From Actinomycetospora chibensis (GTDB lineage Bacteria > Actinomycetota > Actinomycetes > Mycobacteriales > Pseudonocardiaceae): a DNA stretch of 64,000 bases. The notes beneath the pieces are model-generated. The model had not been told where the DNA came from. It saw nothing but the letters and a program-made list of their open reading frames with translations, and did not search any database. Positions 53,868 to 64,000 of the stretch are shown in pieces. The translations under genes and the position numbers were made by a program. The stretch covers positions 62,001 through 126,000 of the forward strand of contig NZ_JAQZAM010000015.1 in assembly GCF_028737215.1 (NCBI RefSeq), written 5' to 3'. The first letter of the stretch is position 1; each line of letters begins with the position of its first letter.

Positions 53868-54467
53868 CTCGTAGGTGCGCCTCCCACCGTCAACACCACC
53901 AAGGCCAGCTCGCGCACCGCCACACGGTCACGCTATCCGGCTGGCTTCAGGCCGCGGCCGGTGGCGGACCGGGTCCGCTCGGTCCCGGGCCTGCGGGCTG
54001 CGGGTCATCGCCGGCCAGCGGGCAGACGTACACGGTCTCCATGCGGCACTCCGTGCCCGCGCCGGCGCGAGCCTCACCAGCCGCCGTCGTAGCCCAGCCG
54101 TTCGGCCGTGGCCCGACGCGCTGAAACGACCTGGCCCATCAGGGCCGGCTCGAAGGTCTACGGGAAGTCCTCACCGCTTCGGATAGGCACCTGATCCGTA
54201 GTTGCGTGCCTACCGCGTGCACGTCAAGTTCGATGGGCACCAGCGGGCACCACAGGTGCTCCATTGGACACACGAGGCGAGAGTGGGAATCAGATCGTGG
54301 ATCGGGATCAGCTGTAGATCGACGACAAGATCGCTGTCACCGAACTCGCGGTGCACGCTCGTACCTCACGCTACTGGGCCGCGTGGGCGGAGGGGACGCG
54401 CGCAGTCGCTCTGTGGAGCGAGGTCGAGGGGGTCGGCTGCACTGCCTCGGGCTCCTCGGTGCGGGGT
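53868..54467. other. Non-coding stretch with a possible small gene remnant
   Basis: 600 bp. A short plus-strand stretch near 54312-54420 reads DDKIAVTELAVHARTSRYWA, which vaguely resembles the opening of SnoaL-like proteins and soon degenerates. The rest shows nothing recognisable. Confidence 0.3.
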
Positions 54468-56312
54468 TCACTCGCTCGTGGCGTCGTGGCTCTGCTCAAC
54501 GAGGGATCGGAGAACGGCGAGGTCGCGCTGCCAGCGTCGCCGCAGCACCTCGCGCACGACGGGTGCGAGCAGGCGGAGCGCCCCGCGCGGCCGGAGCTCG
54601 GCGCGGAACCGCAGGTGTGATCGCCCCTCATCGGGCACGACCTCGCCCTCGAAACGGACATCGAGCCGGTGCCCGCAGCTCGTGGCCGTCCAGGCCCGCG
54701 GCGGGTCGAACCTGGTGTACTGCACCACACCCTCGCCGGCTCTCGTGTGGAGGCGGTAGCGCGTGCCGGCCCCGACCGGACCGTCGGTCAGCAGCTCCAC
54801 CTTGTCGACCGAGGAGTTCCACGCGGTCGCGTTCCGAGGGTCGGTGCAGTAGGCGAACACCTGCTCGGCGGGGCGGCCCACGTCGACGGCCGCCTCGACG
54901 ACAGTCCGGCCGCGCCGCAGCAGGGACCCCGGCACCGACCGTGGGCATACTCCGGTGCGGGCCAGGTCCACCAGCTCGGTGAACGACCCGGCGATGCCGT
55001 CGGTGAACACGTCCAGGTCGGTCATCCCGGCGTCGGCGTTGGCCGCGACGGCCAGCTCGCCGACGTAGGAGAGCGCCGCGACAGTGAGCGGCACGAGCGG
55101 CGCCATGGGGGCGATCGGCACGACCTCGAGCAGCCGGGCGCCGGCCAGCCAGAGCGGCCTCGCCGGCCCCGGCACGTCGGTCACGGAGACGCTGAGCCGG
55201 CGGCTCCCGACGCGCCGGGCCGAGCACAGCAGCCACCGCGTCAGCGGCGTCGGGAGGTGGAGGTCGGAGAAGTCGCCGCCGGCGGCGCGCAACCGCGCCT
55301 TGCCGAGGGCCGTCGCGCTGCGCACGAGCGCGGCGCGGCGCAACGGGTCGGGCTCGCCTACCGGCAGGTCCACGATCAGCATCGCCGCCACCTGCCGTCC
55401 GGCGGCGCCGGTGGCGGCGGGCACCGAGGCGCGCAGCACCAGCCCGGGCACGACCTCCCCGCGGGCGGCCAGGAGGCGCCGCAGGCCACCGGTCACGGCG
55501 GCCAGCAGGAGGTCGTTCACGGTCATGTCCAGGGCGTGTCCGGTGTCCCTGAGCTCCTCCATCGACCGCCGCGTGACCCCCAGCCGGCGCCCCGGGCCGA
55601 TCTGGCGCGACAGCGAGGTGACCGGCTCCGGTCCGGCGAAGCCGGCCATCGCGTCGCGCACCTCTCGCAGACCCGGCCGCGCGGGGCCCGGCCCCTCGGC
55701 CTGCCGGCACCGCCGCGGGCCACGCCGCCCTAGCGCGGCCCCCACCTCCTGCAGCCGCCGGCGCACGAGGTCGCGGTGCGTCGGCAGCGCCGCCGTGGCC
55801 GGAGAGGGCGCGACCGTCACAACCGTTTCGGGTCCGGGGTCGAGCAGCGCGCCCGCGAGCGCTACACCGGTGAGCCCGTCGGCGAGCATGTGCGAGACGA
55901 CGATGAGCACAGCGAACCGGCCGTCGCGCAGCCCGTCGACGACCTCCGCCCGCCACAGCGGCCGGTCCCGATCCAGCGGCCGAGCCGCTCGGTTCGCCGC
56001 CCAGCCGGGCAGGTCCGCGCCGGGCGGGAGGGCCGCGGTCTCGACGTGCCCGAGCGGGTCGAAGCCAGGATCGCCCACCCAGAGCGGCCGGCCCTCGCCC
56101 GGCCGCGTCCACACGACCCGCCGCCCCAGCGCCGGAACCCGCTTCGCCCGCGCGGCCAGCTCCCGGCGGACCCGGGACACATCGACCGCGCCGTCCGGAC
56201 GCACCAGCGGACCGCCGTCGAACGTACCGAGCAGCGCAACCTGCATCGGGGTTTCGTCGTGGTCCAGCCACCTGTACATCAGCTCGTCGAGACGCAACCG
56301 GACCGGGTCCAC
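54468..56312 (-). CDS. Wax ester synthase/diacylglycerol acyltransferase fused to an SRPBCC domain
   Basis: 614 residues from GTG 56312; ATG 56279 is an alternative. Residues 1 to ~460 form a WS/DGAT enzyme: MYRWLDHDETPMQVA, PLWRAEVVDGL, the active-site SHMLADG (normally HHxxxDG; the second, catalytic His is H141), and NDLLLAAVTGGLRRLL. It should make triacylglycerol or wax esters. After a linker, the last ~150 residues (VVEAAVDVGRPAEQVFAYC, then ATAWNSSVDKVELLTDG) are an SRPBCC/polyketide-cyclase-type lipid-binding domain. This C-terminal fusion is not part of ordinary WS/DGATs, which are about 450-500 residues. Confidence 0.83.
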   Translation of the reverse strand: MDPVRLRLDELMYRWLDHDETPMQVALLGTFDGGPLVRPDGAVDVSRVRRELAARAKRVPALGRRVVWTRPGEGRPLWVGDPGFDPLGHVETAALPPGADLPGWAANRAARPLDRDRPLWRAEVVDGLRDGRFAVLIVVSHMLADGLTGVALAGALLDPGPETVVTVAPSPATAALPTHRDLVRRRLQEVGAALGRRGPRRCRQAEGPGPARPGLREVRDAMAGFAGPEPVTSLSRQIGPGRRLGVTRRSMEELRDTGHALDMTVNDLLLAAVTGGLRRLLAARGEVVPGLVLRASVPAATGAAGRQVAAMLIVDLPVGEPDPLRRAALVRSATALGKARLRAAGGDFSDLHLPTPLTRWLLCSARRVGSRRLSVSVTDVPGPARPLWLAGARLLEVVPIAPMAPLVPLTVAALSYVGELAVAANADAGMTDLDVFTDGIAGSFTELVDLARTGVCPRSVPGSLLRRGRTVVEAAVDVGRPAEQVFAYCTDPRNATAWNSSVDKVELLTDGPVGAGTRYRLHTRAGEGVVQYTRFDPPRAWTATSCGHRLDVRFEGEVVPDEGRSHLRFRAELRPRGALRLLAPVVREVLRRRWQRDLAVLRSLVEQSHDATSE

Positions 56313-56699
56313 GACCTCACGGTGGAGCGACCGGGGCACCTCGGCCAGGGCCCAACGCCCCGTTCCAGGTCCTCGACGCCGCTTTCCAGCACGAACTGCG
56401 CGCAGCGTTCGAGTGGGTCGACCATCCCGAGCGGGCCAGCCGGCCGCTGTCGAGCGCGAGGATCTCGCGCGCAGCCGTCGTGGACGCATCGGTAGCGCCG
56501 AACCCGTGGGTTGGAATGGCCTCGCGACACCTCAGAACATCTGGACGGACCGATGTGCACCTTCGCCGCCGCCTGGGGCCTGTGGGCCGGCGTGTCAGAG
56601 GCGGGTGGCTCGTTCCCGGGGGACTTTCGGCTCCGGTGCTCGGTCGCGGGTGGGAGGAAGTCTCCGGCTTCACCGGCAGGGAGCCAAGGGGGGAGAGCC
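56313..56699. other. Divergent intergenic region
   Basis: 387 bp between the WS/DGAT fusion and the serine hydrolase. A plus-strand stretch at about 56359-56500 has protein-like composition (NAPFQVLDAAFQHEL) but no family is recognised and no start is evident. It presumably also holds both promoters. Confidence 0.3.
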
Positions 56700-58157
56700 G
56701 TGGTCACCACCGACGATCTCGACACGCTCGACGCGGCAGACCTGACCACGAGGGTCGATGCGGCGCTGAACCGGTGGCCGACGGCGGGGCTCGCGGTGGG
56801 GGTGGTGCGCGACGGGTCGCTGACGTGCTTCCACGGACACGGGGTCGCGGACGTCGCCTCCGGCGTCCCGGTTACTGCGGACACCGTGTTCCGTGTTGCC
56901 TCCATCACCAAGACGGTCACGGCGATCGCGGTCATGCAGCTACGTGATCGCAGGTTGATCGACCTCGACGCGCCCGCGGCGCGGTACCTGCGCGCCTACC
57001 GGCTGATCCCCGCCCGGACCGGGTGGCCACCGGCCACGGTCCGGCATCTGCTGACCCACATGGCCGGAGTCCGCGCTGTGCGCACCCCTGCCGACCTGCT
57101 GCGATCGGACATGGGTTGGGGCGCCGCCCGCCAACGCTCGGCGCCCTCGCCCGTCGACTACTACGGCCGGGGCCTGCGCATCGATGTCGAGCCCGGCACC
57201 CGCTGGGCGTACTCCAACCACGGCTACGCCGTGCTCGGGCAGATCGTCGAGGACGTCGCCCAGACTCCGCTCGCGGCCTACCTCCGCGAGCAGGTCTTCG
57301 ACCCGCTCGGCATGACCAGCACCGACCTCACCCGCTCCGACCGCGTGCGATCGCACCTGGCCACCGGGTATGAGATCGGCCGCCACGGGCTCCGGGCCGT
57401 CACCGACCGCGAGATCGTGACCGTCGGCGCGAGCGGGATCTTCTCAACCCTCCGCGACATGGCCCGCTTCGCCGCCGCGTTGGTCGGCGGTGGCCGTAAC
57501 GATCACGGCCGGGTACTGGCGGCCGACACACTCACGGAAATGTTCGCCCCTCACCATCAGCCCGACCCGCGGTTGGCGGGCATGGGCCTGGCGTTCTTCC
57601 GCGGGGAGGTCGGTGGCCACCGCACCGTCGGCCACGACGGCATCTGGAAGGGCTTCCGTTCAGACATGCTGCTCGCCCCCGACGACGGGCTCGGCGTCCT
57701 CGCGTTCGCCAACACCGGCTACTTCGATCCCCGCGGGGCGCCGACACCGGTCACCCAGGCACTGTTACGGGGTCTTCTCGGACTCCCGGACGACGTGGTG
57801 CGCGCCGACGTTCCCGAGCGGCCCGAGGTGTGGCGGCAGCTCTGTGGCCGCTACTCCTTCGGCTCGGGCGTGCTGCTCGATCCGCAGCCGCGGATGGTCC
57901 TCGGCTCCGGGGTCGAGGTCCTCGTCCGCGATGACCGGCTCGTGATCCGAGGACGAATGCCGATACCCGCGGTGCGCCGCGGGCTGCGCCTGCACCCAGT
58001 GCCAGACGACCCCGACCTGTTCCGCCTGGACCTCGCCGGGCTCGGCCTCGAGCCGGTGCCGGTCGCGTTCGCGCGCGGACCGCGGGGCGAGGTCACCGCG
58101 CTGCACACCGGCCTCCTACCGATATCCCTCACCAAACGGCCTGACACTCGACCGTGA
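56700..58157 (+). CDS. Beta-lactamase-family serine hydrolase
   Basis: 485 residues from GTG 56700, 2-3 nt after a strong AAGGGGGGAGAG purine run. Catalytic SxxK is S-I-T-K in FRVASITKTVT, YxN is YSNHGYAVLG, and GHDGIWKGF is the third motif. The N-terminal domain (~370 residues) is class C-like; the C-terminal ~110 residues are a beta-rich lipocalin-like domain common in these esterases. No signal peptide is seen, so it is probably cytoplasmic. Confidence 0.88.
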   Translation: MVTTDDLDTLDAADLTTRVDAALNRWPTAGLAVGVVRDGSLTCFHGHGVADVASGVPVTADTVFRVASITKTVTAIAVMQLRDRRLIDLDAPAARYLRAYRLIPARTGWPPATVRHLLTHMAGVRAVRTPADLLRSDMGWGAARQRSAPSPVDYYGRGLRIDVEPGTRWAYSNHGYAVLGQIVEDVAQTPLAAYLREQVFDPLGMTSTDLTRSDRVRSHLATGYEIGRHGLRAVTDREIVTVGASGIFSTLRDMARFAAALVGGGRNDHGRVLAADTLTEMFAPHHQPDPRLAGMGLAFFRGEVGGHRTVGHDGIWKGFRSDMLLAPDDGLGVLAFANTGYFDPRGAPTPVTQALLRGLLGLPDDVVRADVPERPEVWRQLCGRYSFGSGVLLDPQPRMVLGSGVEVLVRDDRLVIRGRMPIPAVRRGLRLHPVPDDPDLFRLDLAGLGLEPVPVAFARGPRGEVTALHTGLLPISLTKRPDTRP

Positions 58158-58643
58158 CCGGACTAAGCCGACCAGCAAGACTCACCCCAGCATCAAACAG
58201 GTCTAATGCAACGGTGCCGTTCTCGGTCGACCGCCGACCCAAAAGCACCACGGATTAGTCCAATCGACTCTTAGCATCGCGGCACCAGCGCGTGACATAG
58301 AACCGGGTTATCGGCTGTCCTCGGAGCTCCCAAGAGGTCTCTAGGGCTCCGCGCTATCTAGCGATGTCGTCGGGCGCGTGTCGGCGGATTGCGTGCCCTA
58401 GTTGGCGGTTCGGACGACGATCAACGCGGGATGTCGGGTTGTTCATGGGTCCACTGTCCCCGCTGCCAGCGGGTCATTCCGGCCTAGAGCCACCACTGCT
58501 ATCCGGGTGGCCATTGCCATGACCGCGGATCAGCCACGCGAGGTTCGTCGGTCGCCCGGAGAGGTGGGCGCCTCCCCCGCGCGCGCAGGCCAGCTCAATC
58601 GAGGTCCGAGGGCGGACCCAACCAAGGCCGCTGCCACGGACCC
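58158..58643. other. Non-coding stretch between convergent genes
   Basis: 486 bp with lower GC than the surroundings (58190-58330 in particular). No gene, hairpin terminator or repeat of note is recognised. Confidence 0.3.
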
Positions 58644-60179
58644 CTATGGCGTCTCGGACGGGGCGGTCGTGGCGGAGCACGCCACGCATCCCGAACCAGT
58701 TGTGGGACGTGTCTCGGGCGGATCAACACGGGTCGGCTCCGCCGGCGCGGGCGCCACAGGAGTGCGTCGAAAGGGCCCGAGGGGCGCTGTCGGGACCGGT
58801 ACCGCGGGCTGGCCGGGCCGGGCGCCCGGGCGAGCTCCCCCGGAGGGTGCCCCGGGCGCGCCGGGGACCAGACGCGACGTCGGTACCGGTCCAGCAGACG
58901 TGCTCGGCGTCGGGGACGAGGTGGCGGAGGTGGGCGTCACGCCTTGGATCGGGGGTACCGCACTCGTCGAGGGCACGAGCGCACCCGGTCCGACGTTGGA
59001 CGACAGCGTGGCGCCCTCACCCGTCAGCATCGCGACCGCAACGGCCGGGACCGCGACGACAGCCGCGACGAATGGGGCAAGCACCGTGGCACTGGTGTGG
59101 GTGCCGCCGCCGAGACCCGCAGGCCACCATGACGTCCCGGTCGCGGTGGTCTCGCTGGTGCGGTGCAGCGTCGGTGCCGCTTGGCGGGCGACGCTGTCGC
59201 TGAGCCAGCCGGGCGCCGGGACCGCGACGGGCGCCGAGGCCAGCAGCGCCGTCGGCGACAGGAGCCGGCGACGAGCCTCGCCGCATCTCGAGCACCGTTC
59301 AACGTGGCGGTTGACGCGCTTCCGCAGCAGGACGGTCATGGTCCCGTCCCAGTTCCCGAGCAGGTCGCCGAGCTCGGCACACGCCTCCCGCTCGTGGCGT
59401 GCGACCAGCAGTGCGCCGAGGCAGCGCTCGATCGTCGAGCGCAGCCGCGAGACCAGGGTGTTGGCGTTGGTGGCGCTGACCCCGAGGGCGTCGGCGAGCT
59501 CGGGTCCGTCTAGGCCGTGGCGGTAGTGCAGCTCCAGCAACGTGCGGTCGCGGTCGGAGAGCCCGCCAGCCGCACGAGCGACCAGGTCTGCGAGCTCGCG
59601 GCGCGCGGCCAGGGTGTCGAGGCTGTGCTCAGGGCTCGGGCGGTCGGGCAGCTCGTCCGCCACCTCCTCGCGCCGGCGCCCGCGCAGCCGCGCGAGGGCC
59701 TCGTGGCGTGCGATGGCGTAGAGCCATGACCGTAGCTTGTCGTGCTCGCGTAGCTGCCCGAGCCGGGTAGCGGCGGTGCAGAAAACGTCCTGAACGCAGT
59801 CGGCGGCGGCATCTGGATCCCGCAACATCCCAAGACAGAAGTCATGCAAAGCATCACCATAGCGTCGGTAGATCGCCGCGAACGCGGTCGAGCTCGTCGG
59901 CGCGGCAGCGGCGAGGGATGCGTCGCTGACCCGCATCGGCTCGGTCGCGTGCTCCCCGCCCCGCCGTGGCCGGGGCAGGCGAGCCACCGACGGATGGATC
60001 AGCCGTGGCCTGGTGGCGGTCGATGGCGAGCCCTGCGCAGCGATCGGCCCGGTGAAGTCGTCGGACCCCGCCCAGAAATCGGGCTTCGCCCAGAGATCGG
60101 CCCCGCACGGAACTCCGACATCGTCACCACCGTGCGCCGCGCGGTGTCGTCCGTCTGCGTGCGCGTCCTCGACCGTCAC
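58644..60179 (-). CDS. ECF sigma factor fused to zinc-finger, transmembrane helix and Pro/Thr-rich tail (copy 1)
   Basis: 511 residues if ATG 60179 is used. Sigma region 2 is FAAIYRRYGDALHDFCLGML with CVQDVF; region 4 is LLELHYRHGLDGPELADALG, then NTLVSRLRSTIERC. Next is an anti-sigma-like zinc site, NRHVERCSRC (H-x3-C-x2-C), a hydrophobic helix (VLAPFVAAVVAVPAVAVAML) and an extracellular Pro/Thr/Ser tail of about 130 residues. The ~100-residue N-terminal extension is also shared in part with copy 2, so it is likely translated; ATG 59936 is the short alternative. Such a factor would be held at the membrane until released. Confidence 0.82.
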   Translation of the reverse strand: MTVEDAHADGRHRAAHGGDDVGVPCGADLWAKPDFWAGSDDFTGPIAAQGSPSTATRPRLIHPSVARLPRPRRGGEHATEPMRVSDASLAAAAPTSSTAFAAIYRRYGDALHDFCLGMLRDPDAAADCVQDVFCTAATRLGQLREHDKLRSWLYAIARHEALARLRGRRREEVADELPDRPSPEHSLDTLAARRELADLVARAAGGLSDRDRTLLELHYRHGLDGPELADALGVSATNANTLVSRLRSTIERCLGALLVARHEREACAELGDLLGNWDGTMTVLLRKRVNRHVERCSRCGEARRRLLSPTALLASAPVAVPAPGWLSDSVARQAAPTLHRTSETTATGTSWWPAGLGGGTHTSATVLAPFVAAVVAVPAVAVAMLTGEGATLSSNVGPGALVPSTSAVPPIQGVTPTSATSSPTPSTSAGPVPTSRLVPGAPGAPSGGARPGARPGQPAVPVPTAPLGPFRRTPVAPAPAEPTRVDPPETRPTTGSGCVACSATTAPSETP

Positions 60180-60595
60180 GCCCGTATCACCGTGCTGCGA
60201 ACAACGACCTTCATCGCGCCCCCTCCACTCTCGCGGGCAGCGAGCCGTGCCATGGCACAGCTCACCAACCGCCTCCCCCCCCCGGACTGGCGTTGATCAC
60301 CGCATCGCTCCGTTCAGGCCAGCTGTTTCGCAATGCCGCCGAACGGTCGCCAGGAAGCGCCCGAAGGTGGAAGGCGGCGAATAGCGGCGGCGCGGAGCGG
60401 CAGAACCCCAAGAAGGCGCACGAGTCACCTCGGACCGGTCGCTCCTAGCCCGATCTCCCTCACCGGAGCCGAGAGCCAAGAAGTCCGCACGAGACAGACT
60501 CAACGGCCGCGAATAGGCAGGACAGAGCCTCGCTGTCGGCGTCGAGGTGCCCGGCGCGCTGGCAAGCTCCGCACTTGCCACGGGGAGGCGCGTGT
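60180..60595. other. Non-coding stretch upstream of sigma copy 1
   Basis: 416 bp between the sortase stop and the sigma gene start (both minus strand). It contains a run of nine C residues at 60273-60281. It should carry the promoter of sigma copy 1; no -35/-10 pair is convincing. Confidence 0.3.
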
Positions 60596-61246
60596 TCACG
60601 TTCGGTAGGCCTCGAGGGCGGCGCCGTACACGACGACGTTGTCCTCGTAGCTGTCGGCGTCGGTGTCGAAGGTGCCGCCGCAGGTGATGAGTCGCAGCTC
60701 CGGGCCGCGGGTGGGTCCGTACACCGCCTGGGTTGGGAACGCGTCCTTGTCCACCTGCGCGACGCGGTCAACGCGGAACACCACCGTCACGTCGTCGCTA
60801 CGGTCGACGAGCACCTGGTCGCCGGCCTCGACCTCCGCGAGCCGGGCGAACCCGCCCTCGGCACCTCGGTAGACGACGTGTGAGGCGTAGACGGCGGGAC
60901 CTTGCTCTCCCGCCGACGCGCCCTCCGCGTAATGCCCCACCGTGGCCGCGTCCCGCGGCACCTCGAGACGACGGTCCGCGTCCTGCCCGAGCTCTGTGAG
61001 CCGGGCGGTGTCCAGCCCGATCGAGGGCACCCGCAGCCTCGTCGTCACAGCCGGGGTGAGTGGCAGCCCGACCGCCGTGCGCTGCGCGGGCAGCCCGACC
61101 GAGGCCGGACCGACCCGGCCGCCACCCGTGACGGAGAAGAACGCGACGGCGAAGGCGGCCACGGCGACGAGCAGGAGGACGACCGGGACAACACCCGGGC
61201 GCCTCGACACTCGTCCCGGCGGTGACGCCGCAGGGTGACCGGTCAC
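60596..61246 (-). CDS. Class F-like sortase
   Basis: 216 residues from GTG 61246, overlapping the wall-protein stop (GTGA). A single N-terminal membrane helix (VVPVVLLLVAVAAFAVAFF) anchors an external sortase domain: RLRVPSIGLDT, AVYASHVVYRG with the catalytic His, and RLITCGG with the catalytic Cys. In many sortases an Arg follows about 12-13 residues after the Cys. Here that spot reads SYEDNVVVYG, with Glu. Activity is therefore uncertain, or another Arg takes the role. It is expected to anchor surface proteins to the cell wall or join them together. Confidence 0.85.
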   Translation of the reverse strand: MTGHPAASPPGRVSRRPGVVPVVLLLVAVAAFAVAFFSVTGGGRVGPASVGLPAQRTAVGLPLTPAVTTRLRVPSIGLDTARLTELGQDADRRLEVPRDAATVGHYAEGASAGEQGPAVYASHVVYRGAEGGFARLAEVEAGDQVLVDRSDDVTVVFRVDRVAQVDKDAFPTQAVYGPTRGPELRLITCGGTFDTDADSYEDNVVVYGAALEAYRT

Positions 61247-62115
61247 GGCGCGCTGCGGCGACGGTGCCAGGCCACGCCACCAGTGCCCAGTGCGGTCAGC
61301 CCGAGAGCGCCCGCCGCGATCGGCACGACCGGCGCCGTCGCGCCGGAGCCGTCGCCGGCGGCCACGCCGCCCTCCGGGTACGCGGCGTCTTCGACGTCGT
61401 CTGCCGACGGCGCGCCCTGCTCGAGGCCAGCGTTGACGACCTCGACGCGCTCGACGTCCTGCCCGCTGGAGCCGCAGCGCACCGCGGTGCCGTCGCTGTA
61501 GGCCACCCACCGCCCTCCGTTCCACAGGTACACCGATGTTGGGTGGACGTTCGTCTGCTGGTTGACCGTCACCTGCTGGTTCACCACCGGAGTTGGCTGG
61601 TGCTGCGGCCCCTCAGGCCCTCTGGGAACCTCCGGACCCTGCTCTGGAACCCGCGGACCTTCGGGCGCCCGCGGGCCCCGCGGTCCTTCGGGCCCCTCGG
61701 TGCTGTTCTCGCACTCCTCGCGGGCGTCGGCGAGTTCGCGGACGGCTTCCTGGAGTGCCCGGCCGGCGGCCTGCTGGGCGGCGAAGAGCTTGGTGTTGCG
61801 CTCCACGGCCCTCTGCGCGGTGACGCGGGCGTCCTCGATGTCGGAGGCGGTCGCGGTCTCGTCGGCCTGTAGCCGCTCGTAGGTGGCGCGGGTGGTCGCC
61901 ACGACGGTCTTCTGGCGCTGGTAGGCGGCCAGCGCCTCGTCGAGGGCGTTCTGGCGCTCCCGCACGAGCGCCTTTGCCTCGACGACCGCAGCACACGTCG
62001 GTTCGGGCGGGGAGGCGGCAGCGACACCGGCGCCCAGGGGCAACAGCAGGCCCGCGGCCAGGGCACCACCGATCAGGACACGGACGCCGGTGGGTAAGGC
62101 AGAACGCTGGGACAT
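61243..62115 (-). CDS. Secreted wall-type protein: coiled coil, collagen-like GPx segment, C-terminal sorting-like signal
   Basis: 290 residues. A signal peptide (about residues 1-34, ending AAAS) is followed by a long charged helix (AKALVRERQNALDEALAAY ...) likely to form a coiled coil. Next comes a collagen-like stretch with GPEGPRGPRAPEGP, a Q/N/V-rich linker and a C-terminal domain. The end, PVVPIAAGALGLTAL-GTGGVAWHRRR, has the hydrophobic span and basic tail of a sorting signal, but no LPxTG is present. It is translationally coupled to the sortase, so it is the obvious candidate substrate. Confidence 0.75.
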   Translation of the reverse strand: MSQRSALPTGVRVLIGGALAAGLLLPLGAGVAAASPPEPTCAAVVEAKALVRERQNALDEALAAYQRQKTVVATTRATYERLQADETATASDIEDARVTAQRAVERNTKLFAAQQAAGRALQEAVRELADAREECENSTEGPEGPRGPRAPEGPRVPEQGPEVPRGPEGPQHQPTPVVNQQVTVNQQTNVHPTSVYLWNGGRWVAYSDGTAVRCGSSGQDVERVEVVNAGLEQGAPSADDVEDAAYPEGGVAAGDGSGATAPVVPIAAGALGLTALGTGGVAWHRRRSAP

Positions 62116-62285
62116 CGAGGCTCCTCGCAGCTCGTCCCGCGACCGTGCTCGGTGGCGGTGACACGGGTAGGAGCAGCAGACCCCACCGACTCGCACACTT
62201 TTCTCGCGACTTCTTTGACGTCTTCCGCGGTGAGCCTCCGGTCGCCGTGTCCGGGCCCGGGCTGGTCGAACCGGGAAGCGGCTCG

Positions 62286-63896
62286 CTATCCGCCGCCGAA
62301 CAGCTCGTCGCCACCGCCGCCGGCACCACCGCCGCCGTCGCCACCGCCGGCACCACCGCCGCCCCCGGCATCGCCGAACAGCCCGTCAAAGCCCCCGCCA
62401 CCGTTTTGACCGCCGTCCCCGTCGCCGCCACCCTGAGCCTGGTCGCCGCCCTGTCCCCCATCGCCGCCGCTGTCGACGGCACTCGGCGGGGTGGTCGCTC
62501 CGCTCACGGTGGTCCGACGCGCGACCGGTGGCGCCACGCGAGCCGGGGTGGTCGTCGTCGAGCTGGTGACTCGTGCGGGCAGAGCGGGGGCGGTGCGAGG
62601 GACCGCGCTGGCGCTGATCTCGTGCGCGGGGTGGCTCGCCGTCGCCTCTGTACCGGGACCGGCGGTCAGGGGCGCGATCGCGACGAGGGAGACGGTCGCC
62701 GCGGCGACGAGAGGAGCCGCGACCGCGGCGAGCGCCGTGGGCGTTCCCGACCCCACCCCGGCGGGCCACCAACCGTGGTGGGCCAGCCCGCTGGTCTTGA
62801 GCAGTGGGGTGGCGTGGTGCACGACCGAATCCCCGAGCCAGGCCGGTGCCGGGATGATCACCGGCGCCGAGGCCAGGAGCGCCTGGGGCGTGACGAGCTC
62901 GCGGCGGGCACGGCTGCAGGATTCACAGCGTTCGATGTGGCGGTTGAGCCGCTTGCGCAGCAGGACGGTCATCGCTCCGTCCCAGTCCGCGAGCAGCGCG
63001 GCGAGCTCGGGGCAGTGCTCGCGGTGGTGGCGGGCGACCAGTGTCGCGCCCAGGCAGCGCTCGATGGTGATCCGCAGACGCGATACCAGGGTGTTGGCGT
63101 TGGTGGCGCTGACACCCATGGCCTCGGCGAGCGCGGGCCCGTCCAGACCGTGCTGGTAGTGCAGCTCGAGCACCGCGCGATCACGGTCGGCGAGCCCGCC
63201 GGCGGCCTTAGCGACGAGGGAGACGAGCTCGGTCCGTGCAGCGAGGGTCTCGGGCCCATCGGCGGTGCTGGCGGAGTCGGGCAGGTCGTCCGTGGGTTCT
63301 TCCCGACGTCGCCGACGCAGCCGAGCCAAGGCCTCGTGGCGTGCGATCGCGTAGAGCCACGGCCGCAGCTTGTCGGGCTCGCGCAGCTGCCCCAGCCGCG
63401 ACGCCGCGGTGCAGAACACATCCTGGACGCAGTCGGCCGCCGCGTCGGGGTCGCGCAACATCCCGAGGCAGAAGTCGTGCAAGGCGTCGCCGTACCGACG
63501 GTAGATCGCCGCGAACGCCGTCGGGTTGTTCCGGGCGGCCACCGCCAGCGCCACGTCCTCGACGAGGACCGGCTCGGTGGCCGGCCTCGGGTCGGGCGAC
63601 TTCCGTTGGTGGGGCACGCGGACCGAGGTGCGAACCAGTCGCGGCCCCGATCCAGCGACGATGGGACGGGCGACGATGGGACGGGCCGTGGCCACCGGTC
63701 CGGTCTCGTGGGCTCCGGACGCTTCGCCCGCCCAGGCCGGCGGCGACATGTCGACAGCAGCGACGAGCCGGTGTCGGCCGGCGGGTGCGCCAGCGGAGTC
63801 GGAGCGAGGAAGCTCGGGACGTCCCGCCCCGTTCCGGGCCGTCACGTCGTGGTGTCCGCATGGTCTCGGGAATCGAAGCCAACCAGCATGTCCCAC
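62286..63896 (-). CDS. ECF sigma factor fused to zinc-finger, transmembrane helix and Gly-rich tail (copy 2)
   Basis: 536 residues from ATG 63896; ATG 63749 is an alternative. The sigma module (FAAIYRRYGDALHDFCLGML, CVQDVFCTAASRLGQL, LELHYQHGLDGPALAEAMG), the zinc site NRHIERCESC and the membrane helix (LAAVAAPLVAAATVSLVAIAPL) match copy 1 closely. The outer tail differs: a Thr/Pro part, then about 60 residues mostly of Gly with Asp. It starts within 105 bp of the window end. Paired with copy 1 it brackets the sortase operon. Confidence 0.82.
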   Translation of the reverse strand: MGHAGWLRFPRPCGHHDVTARNGAGRPELPRSDSAGAPAGRHRLVAAVDMSPPAWAGEASGAHETGPVATARPIVARPIVAGSGPRLVRTSVRVPHQRKSPDPRPATEPVLVEDVALAVAARNNPTAFAAIYRRYGDALHDFCLGMLRDPDAAADCVQDVFCTAASRLGQLREPDKLRPWLYAIARHEALARLRRRRREEPTDDLPDSASTADGPETLAARTELVSLVAKAAGGLADRDRAVLELHYQHGLDGPALAEAMGVSATNANTLVSRLRITIERCLGATLVARHHREHCPELAALLADWDGAMTVLLRKRLNRHIERCESCSRARRELVTPQALLASAPVIIPAPAWLGDSVVHHATPLLKTSGLAHHGWWPAGVGSGTPTALAAVAAPLVAAATVSLVAIAPLTAGPGTEATASHPAHEISASAVPRTAPALPARVTSSTTTTPARVAPPVARRTTVSGATTPPSAVDSGGDGGQGGDQAQGGGDGDGGQNGGGGFDGLFGDAGGGGGAGGGDGGGGAGGGGDELFGGG

Positions 63897-64000
63897 CTTG
63901 CTTCCCGCGAGCAGGACCGCGACCTCGCCGGCCGACGGTCATCCTCGCTCCCCCCGGAGTAGTGATCCACGCATCGCTACGCCCGTCACGATCGTTTCCC

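Follow-up and report, generated by a model that had tools for sequence, protein, structure and literature searches.

The stretch of DNA analysed here (the window, 64,000 nucleotides) corresponds to positions 62001-126000 of contig C6 in the 6.18-Mb genome of Actinomycetospora chibensis (family Pseudonocardiaceae), and near its end it carries a gene, sigB, for an extracytoplasmic function (ECF) sigma factor that is fused to a zinc-site module and predicted to be tethered to the membrane. Judged by synteny, the conserved unit is a 4.8-kb cassette, W2-sigB-W1-sortase, which crosses the window edge and combines sigB with a sortase gene and two wall-protein genes (W1 and W2); a second sigma gene, sigA, lies outside this block. 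It is proposed, with belief and doubt about evenly balanced, that SigB is a self-amplifying tethered sigma factor of a surface-coat cassette, the transcript of which possibly reads through into W1 and the sortase gene. The domains, selection, synteny, co-occurrence and two upstream motifs on which this proposal builds were established by sequence comparison, which covered in particular Actinomycetospora lutea TBRC 2215, A. callitridis DSM 101857 and Actinomycetospora sp. NBRC 106375.

The cassette and its sigma factor

On the minus strand of positions 58644-63896, in the order of transcription, sigB (63896-62286) is followed by W1 (62115-61243), the sortase gene (61246-60596) and sigA (60179-58644). 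The arrangement of all four genes on one strand and the coupling of a wall gene to a sortase gene between two sigma genes, both reported in a preliminary description of this DNA, are borne out: W1 (61243-62115) and the sortase gene (60596-61246) overlap by 4 bases (GTGA). A gap of 170 bp separates sigB from W1, and W2 is located just past the window edge (C6:126350-127273), divergent from sigB. By their sequences the genes of the locus are real, and the reading frames of SigA and SigB are intact. The features of the two sigma factors are as follows.

62286..63896, minus strand: SigB, ECF sigma factor of 536 residues (GTG start uncertain) that carries a fused zinc-site module, a membrane helix and a tail rich in Gly and Asp
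63303..63506, minus strand: SigB sigma region 2, residues 131-198 (Pfam PF04542, 48.1 bits)
63072..63203, minus strand: SigB sigma region 4, residues 232-275 (PF08281, 24.7 bits, cut-off 25.7)
62916..63014, minus strand: SigB zinc anti-sigma-like (ZAS) module, C295-x24-H320-x3-C324-x2-C327 (motif alignment)
62676..62732, minus strand: predicted SigB membrane helix, residues ~389-407 (mean hydropathy 2.32 over 19 residues)
62289..62675, minus strand: predicted SigB outer tail, Gly/Asp-rich (sequence composition)
58644..60179, minus strand: SigA, paralogous tethered ECF sigma factor with a Pro/Thr/Ser-rich tail
59283..59381, minus strand: SigA zinc-site module, C267-x24-H292-x3-C296-x2-C299 (motif; weak zf-HC2 match, 16.1 bits, cut-off 22.2)
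59028..59084, minus strand: predicted SigA membrane helix, residues ~366-384 (mean hydropathy 2.49 over 19 residues)

SigA and SigB share 58% identity over 445 residues, and both belong to the ECF sigma factors by TIGR02937 (sigma70-ECF; 74 and 73.4 bits, cut-off 42.9). The Pfam model for region 2 scores above its cut-off in both proteins and that for region 4 scores above it in SigA and 1 bit below it in SigB. Together with the H-x3-C-x2-C site, the hydropathy peak and the tail of 127-129 residues that follows the helix, these matches agree with the domain order given for both proteins in the preliminary description. The C-x24-H-x3-C-x2-C spacing is invariant in 12 of 12 aligned sigma homologs, and the shorter H-x3-C-x2-C site is present with a hydrophobic segment and a tail in all 15 homologs listed. 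By motif and hydropathy, this is the layout of the ECF48/52/53 type, with a C-terminal zinc site, a membrane helix and a long outer extension; the likeness to known ECF groups had been anticipated, and a fused layout of this kind is described for ECF48/52/53 in the available text of PMC8999054. The carbohydrate-binding module of ECF52 is not seen, as no Pfam domain was found in the tail of SigA or SigB at E<=0.1. The Gly-rich tails of four SigB orthologs vary in length and order, and all end in (L/I)FG(G/D)G.

Coding constraint along SigB was estimated from the ratio of nonsynonymous to synonymous substitution rates (dN/dS) against A. lutea, A. callitridis and NBRC 106375, and values are given in that order. 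The sigma domain gives 0.04, 0.05 and 0.14, the zinc module 0.04, 0.14 and 0.27, and the membrane helix 0.11, 0 and 0.26. The ratio rises to 0.33, 0.55 and 0.34 in the tail, which is thus coding yet loosely constrained, and to 0.56, 0.48 and 0.39 in the far N-terminal ~80 residues. Because this far N-terminus is weakly constrained, the start codons of the sigma genes are uncertain and the true starts may lie further in. The possibility that tail and helix are frameshift artefacts, which the preliminary description had named as a danger to its account, is ruled out for SigB by these ratios and by frames that are open in all three relatives.

A third full-length sigma paralog, at the unlinked locus C17:11100-12362, faces its own wall gene, W3; a search of the surrounding 19 kb showed no sortase of the cassette type. 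Full-length W proteins are present in 4 of 18 genus genomes, A. chibensis included, and these are the same four that contain sigma homologs at least 60% identical to SigB. In a search of 390 Pseudonocardiaceae genomes, with the best six candidates per genome scored, full-length W proteins occurred in four and any match in 13, the other nine matching near the sorting signal only. A short-pattern scan of the named genomes located four W loci in three Actinomycetospora species. In the close clade, a W gene lies within ~5 kb of six of the seven full-length sigma genes, and a W remnant is left beside the seventh. With a profile derived from five sortases, four of them of the cassette, the five best matches (329-408 bits) all fall in the four W genomes; with the next match at 312 bits, this gap is modest. 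Observed at two unlinked A. chibensis loci and in four genomes, the association of sigma factor and surface protein is supported by sequence as non-random.

Wall proteins and the Arg-less sortase

The wall protein and the sortase of the cassette have the following features.

61243..62115, minus strand: W1 wall protein, with predicted signal peptide, helical hairpin, variable linker, conserved C-terminal domain and sorting signal
61702..61992, minus strand: predicted W1 helical hairpin, residues 42-138, between Cys41 and a Cys near residue 135 (alignment and AlphaFold2)
61255..61380, minus strand: W1 C-terminal sorting signal (GVDTG_CTERM NF058571, 22.5 bits, cut-off 29)
60596..61246, minus strand: class F-like sortase (Pfam Sortase, 77.8 bits, above the cut-off of 26.6)
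60653..60655, minus strand: sortase Asp198, nine residues after Cys189, at the expected Arg position

The W proteins carry, in our reading of their sequences, a signal peptide. In the AlphaFold2 model of W1, helices are predicted for residues 42-84 and 90-138, where the predicted local distance difference test (pLDDT) score is mostly >90 (53.0 for the whole model). The family ends in YPEGGVxAGDG (YPEGGVAAGDG in W1) followed by a hydrophobic stretch and RRR. Seven of eight family members match NF058571, the GVDTG sorting signal, at E<=0.01, with W1 itself below the cut-off. Between hairpin and C-terminal domain the linker is hypervariable and of low complexity, with GPxGP, GGGTG, PNPN, TEPTTP, DDPTPG and TDGG forms across the family. 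W1 had been described as collagen-like; its Gly-X-Y repeats run to at most three consecutive triplets, and this short linker, one form of the hypervariable segment, is swapped for other linkers in relatives, so the label is withdrawn. An anti-phage role of W1 was likewise discarded, its sole sign being a weak match (15.2 bits) between a MukB-like model and the helices. No solved structural relative of W was found.

At four other genus loci (in G004, G008, G010 and on A. lutea C44), another surface protein terminates in a YPEGGVxxGDG-type signal and is encoded immediately next to a sortase gene detected with the cassette-derived profile, which supports the idea that signal type pairs with sortase type. 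Surface proteins with the signal YPEGGVSTGDGS adjoin sortases at L078, L080, L081 and L088, and their repetitive middles differ strongly. In G005, a genome without the cassette, a long and different surface protein, probably coiled-coil with a His-rich linker, bears a sorting signal of this same kind, AYPVGGVDAGDGS (L079; C17:19688-19846 and upstream).

The sortase is closest to class F, although its score against class_F_sortase NF033748 (159.5 bits) falls short of the cut-off of 166. No solved relative was identified by profile, and single-sequence matches were non-significant. In SrtE1, according to the available text of PMC5148588, the active-site arginine lies nine residues after the cysteine (Cys320/Arg329), and from this spacing we infer that the same position, C+9, would hold the catalytic arginine in class F. 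The residue at C+9 in five cassette sortases is D, D, D, D and H. The C+9 survey covered 42 loci, of which eleven were filtered out; the 21 other distinct genus sortases listed have R at C+9 in 16 cases, K in two, G in two and L in one (with R at C+12), and among these eleven loci two more sortases have R and one has G at C+9 with R at C+12. Loss of the arginine is therefore common to the cassette clade and not unique to it. The four pairs of sortase and surface protein described above (sortases L130, L131, L132 and L144) resemble the cassette in that a sortase gene stands beside a gene for a YPEGGVxxGDG-type protein; they retain Arg at C+9, unlike the cassette sortases. Elsewhere in the A. 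chibensis genome, three sortase genes lie close together at C29:22419-26832, and sortase places number 12 by the cassette-derived profile and 11 by the Pfam model. The physiological role of this sortase class is still called unknown in the available text of a 2026 paper (PMC13251363).

Upstream motifs and the proposed switch

Two short conserved elements lie upstream of the genes of this locus, one at the sigma genes and one at the wall genes.

63973..63998, minus strand: predicted ECF promoter of sigB, GAAAC-N17-CGAT (exact match, conserved in relatives)
60304..60329, minus strand: predicted ECF promoter of sigA, GAAAC-N17-CGAT (exact match)
62188..62200, minus strand: core of the wall-gene upstream block, AAGTGTGCGAGTC (three exact A. 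chibensis sites, one upstream of each wall gene)

The two promoter sites are the only exact GAAAC-N17-CGAT matches in the window (mean of 0.13 in 100 shuffles, one of which contained two). With a spacer that is always 17, GAAAC-N17-CGA(T/C) precedes 9 of 15 sigma homologs scanned; all nine are in Actinomycetospora, where ten homologs were examined. They include all seven close-clade sigma genes (SigA, SigB, the C17 paralog, A. lutea, two in A. callitridis, and NBRC 106375 with CGAC), and the motif also stands before the 46-47% identical sigma homologs of genomes G002 and G016, neither of which has a W gene. A search of six genomes for GAAAC-N17-CGATG returned 14 sites, of which 8 belong to sigma genes of the family, compared with 1 site for a reversed-pattern control. 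Three of the 6 sites in the A. chibensis genome are at its three sigma genes; the others are inside a reading frame, overlapping a start codon and ~500 bp before a putative hydrolase gene. On sequence grounds, this distribution is the pattern expected of narrow autoregulation. The preliminary description had envisaged one motif upstream of 60179, 62115 and 63896. GAAAC-N17-CGAT is found at both sigma genes and not at the wall gene, which has a different conserved block; a promoter common to all three sites is thus rejected for the wall gene.

In this second block AAGTGTGCG(A/G)GTC precedes GCTGCTCCTACCC, and the leader is conserved as well; A. lutea, A. callitridis and NBRC 106375 show minor variants. 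Exact core sites number 3 in A. chibensis, two in A. callitridis, one in NBRC 106375 and none in A. lutea; none occurs in the two W-free genomes that complete the set of six searched. Among W1, W2 and W3, the segment from -51 to -90 keeps 33-36 of 39-40 bases and that from -141 to -200 keeps 37-45 of 58-60. Because bases are kept at -51 to -90 while 34-52% of the synonymous sites of these genes differ, the block is probably under selection. In NBRC 106375, an altered block of the W type is observed upstream of the sigma gene, on the sigma strand (L064:9345-9383), hinting that the two promoter types are tied together. In the W1 leader (window 62116-62174), CTCCT can pair with the ribosome-site AGGAG; such pairing can form in 9 of 9 W leaders, once through a G-U pair, with little covariation. 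The predicted fold is weak in the six leaders folded (z = -0.2 to -2.3), and a masked ribosome site is treated as a lead only. A known RNA element in the leader was rejected, as positions 54000-64000 gave no Rfam match.

A possible course of regulation can be assembled from these elements, for which we infer membrane topology, cis inhibition, proteolytic release, promoter recognition, read-through and sortase-substrate pairing. SigB would sit inactive at the membrane, restrained by the zinc-site module and the helix that it carries itself. When conditions at the outer tail change, the sigma part would be set free, most likely through regulated proteolysis, which has been proposed for the ECF48/52/53 proteins. 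The freed SigB would read GAAAC-N17-CGAT and amplify its own operon, the transcript of which may run on into W1 and the sortase gene, and the sortase would anchor the W proteins through the YPEGGVxAGDG signal. The W genes also carry a second conserved promoter/leader block, which is unrelated to the sigma motif. SigA is an independent paralog, a neighbour of the cassette in A. chibensis that shares the promoter type.

Several observations weigh against this course of events. The chief weakness is that the W promoters show no element that would connect them directly with the sigma factor: GAAAC-N17-CGAT is absent before the wall genes, where the best matches have 2-3 mismatches in 9, so direct control of the W genes by the sigma factor is unproven and leans on read-through. 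No terminator-like site was found in 58300-64000, which is weak support for read-through because shuffles gave a mean of 0.8. The motif is also missing before the A. lutea C62 homolog and five homologs of other genera in the 15-homolog scan, 6 of the 14 genome-wide sites are away from sigma genes of the family, and a looser pattern applied to nine local loci (7.6-20 kb) gave 11 sites, nine at sigma genes and two elsewhere. The zinc module stands mainly on its motif, since the zf-HC2 profile matches 1 of 12 sigma homologs at E<=0.01; SigB itself has no Pfam zinc-finger match. Contact between sigma domain and zinc module is not readable from the AlphaFold2 model of SigB, which is poor (mean pLDDT 45.9). 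The sortase retains His123 and Cys189 of the His/Cys/Arg set and lacks the arginine. Finally, at the A. callitridis C17 locus (L065:10108-10230), the wall promoter and ~10 codons' worth of the gene remain, the body of the wall gene is deleted and the sigma gene is intact, and neither a W gene nor a cassette-like sortase was found near any of eight distant sigma homologs (37-47% identical to SigB; 18-19-kb windows, tblastn at 1e-3). From this survival without W, and from the distant homologs, it follows that the sigma factor has work apart from the W proteins.

The same distant windows, in which Pfam scans of 16 genes detected no sortase, bear on whether the linkage is real. The preliminary description would have been undermined by sigma homologs mostly without the sortase operon; this is the case for the distant homologs (0/8) and not for the close clade, where six of seven have W nearby, and the association is thus a clade innovation and not a trait of the whole family. 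The distant homologs would also suit an ordinary neighbourhood, in which an ECF52/53-type sigma gene came by chance to lie beside a surface protein gene. We regard this as very improbable, given that the pairing is repeated at unlinked loci and that, of 18 genus genomes, the same four have both partners.

A stronger competitor is that another regulator drives the wall genes through their own block, with a leader that possibly masks the ribosome site, while the sigma factor controls itself and other genes and the linkage reflects joint inheritance. The conservation of the -51 to -90 segment amid synonymous divergence, the restriction of its core in the A. chibensis genome to the three wall genes, its unlikeness to the sigma promoter and the pairing available in every W leader are all consistent with this account. 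Set against it, no other regulator gene is seen within the syntenic block, the leader fold is weak, and the exact core occurs in three of six genomes, all with the cassette, whereas A. lutea has the cassette with variant cores only. On balance we lean away from it, while counting it a serious contender.

The proposed tethered switch could also be extended into a closed loop of surface homeostasis, in which the Arg-less sortase-like protein is no longer (only) a transpeptidase and binds or slowly processes W, and occupancy or the W hairpins act on the sigma tail to reset the operon; this extension is a long shot.

SigA, paralogs and related systems

The preliminary description took a duplicated pair of sigma genes bracketing the sortase operon as the unit of interest. 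Synteny in A. lutea and A. callitridis rules out such a conserved pair: the 4.8-kb block is 89.8% identical to A. lutea and 84.8% identical to A. callitridis, homology stops at the sortase stop codon, and sigA, which is seen beside the sortase gene in A. chibensis alone, is absent from both syntenic loci. No SigA ortholog was found in a SigB search of 60 relatives (no further match at >=60%, with at most the best 23 candidates per genome scored). SigA branches separately from both the SigB clade (93/92) and the third paralog (99/100) in a tree that leaves 6 of its 12 inner branches open. It is unlikely that the two sigma factors, each with its own kind of tail, respond to separate wall states and together drive the sortase operon. 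Both genes are intact, share a promoter type and flank the operon in A. chibensis, as that account would have it; two relatives nevertheless keep the cassette without SigA, sigA is downstream of the operon, and W1 is not preceded by GAAAC-N17-CGAT.

Other copies of these genes record loss and rearrangement. A 302-bp piece of sigA (A. chibensis C52:3739-4047, L059; 87.7% identical), comprising only the end of region 4 and the zinc module, is apparently a decayed extra copy. Between A. chibensis and A. callitridis, the C17 paralogs are nearly unconstrained in the far N-terminus (dN/dS 0.78) and in the segment leading up to the membrane helix (0.88). In both species the C17 sigma gene is directly followed by a gene for a 309-residue protein (L058:9910-10839, L065:7424-8353), which matches a YbjN-chaperone model below its cut-off (21.2 vs 27 bits) and has a start that reads as zinc-ribbon-like. 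In NBRC 106375 the cassette is rearranged, with a W-sortase pair convergent with the sigma gene and a W gene that has lost its start; a second W-sortase pair is located on a 7.6-kb contig. A frame shift near codons 31-40 of A. lutea W1 could stem from an error in the assembly.

The closest known systems are the ECF48/52/53 proteins, which are likewise actinobacterial and combine sigma domains with a ZAS-like zinc finger, a membrane helix and a long outer extension, and which, in the available text of PMC8999054 and PMC5826349, are expected to be held by the fused zinc module and freed by proteolysis. They differ from SigA and SigB, in whose tails no carbohydrate-binding domain was found, and SigB is paired with wall-protein and sortase genes. 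In the sections available of PMC5826349, truncated SCO4117 (ECF52) activates its own gene; compared by motif and not by protein sequence, its CSGYN-17-SRHA differs from the GAAAC-N17-CGAT described here. The BldN-RsbN system of Streptomyces, as presented in the text available of PMC4255298, also places surface proteins (chaplins), some of them sortase-anchored, under an ECF sigma factor; its anti-sigma protein is separate and encoded next door. IutY of Pseudomonas putida (ECF243) shares the fused anti-sigma region and proteolytic activation and differs in its host and in serving iron-siderophore signalling, again according to the part of PMC8999054 available. Among the open-licence PubMed Central titles listed, none concerned a sortase/surface-protein cassette with a tethered ECF sigma factor, and ten papers listed there contain no mention of Actinomycetospora; both are weak evidence.

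The type of switch is thus known, and its pairing with an unusual wall-protein family and a sortase was seen in four Actinomycetospora genomes. For most sigma factors that carry a fused anti-sigma domain, inputs and outputs are, to our knowledge, not known. Here the candidate targets are few (the sigma gene, W1, W2, W3 and one sortase gene) and the two elements are short and nearly cassette-specific, which makes the question directly testable. The cassette also draws attention to a subfamily of sortases that lack the expected arginine and are encoded next to a probable substrate, and it offers a testable example of how tethered switches may govern the cell surface.

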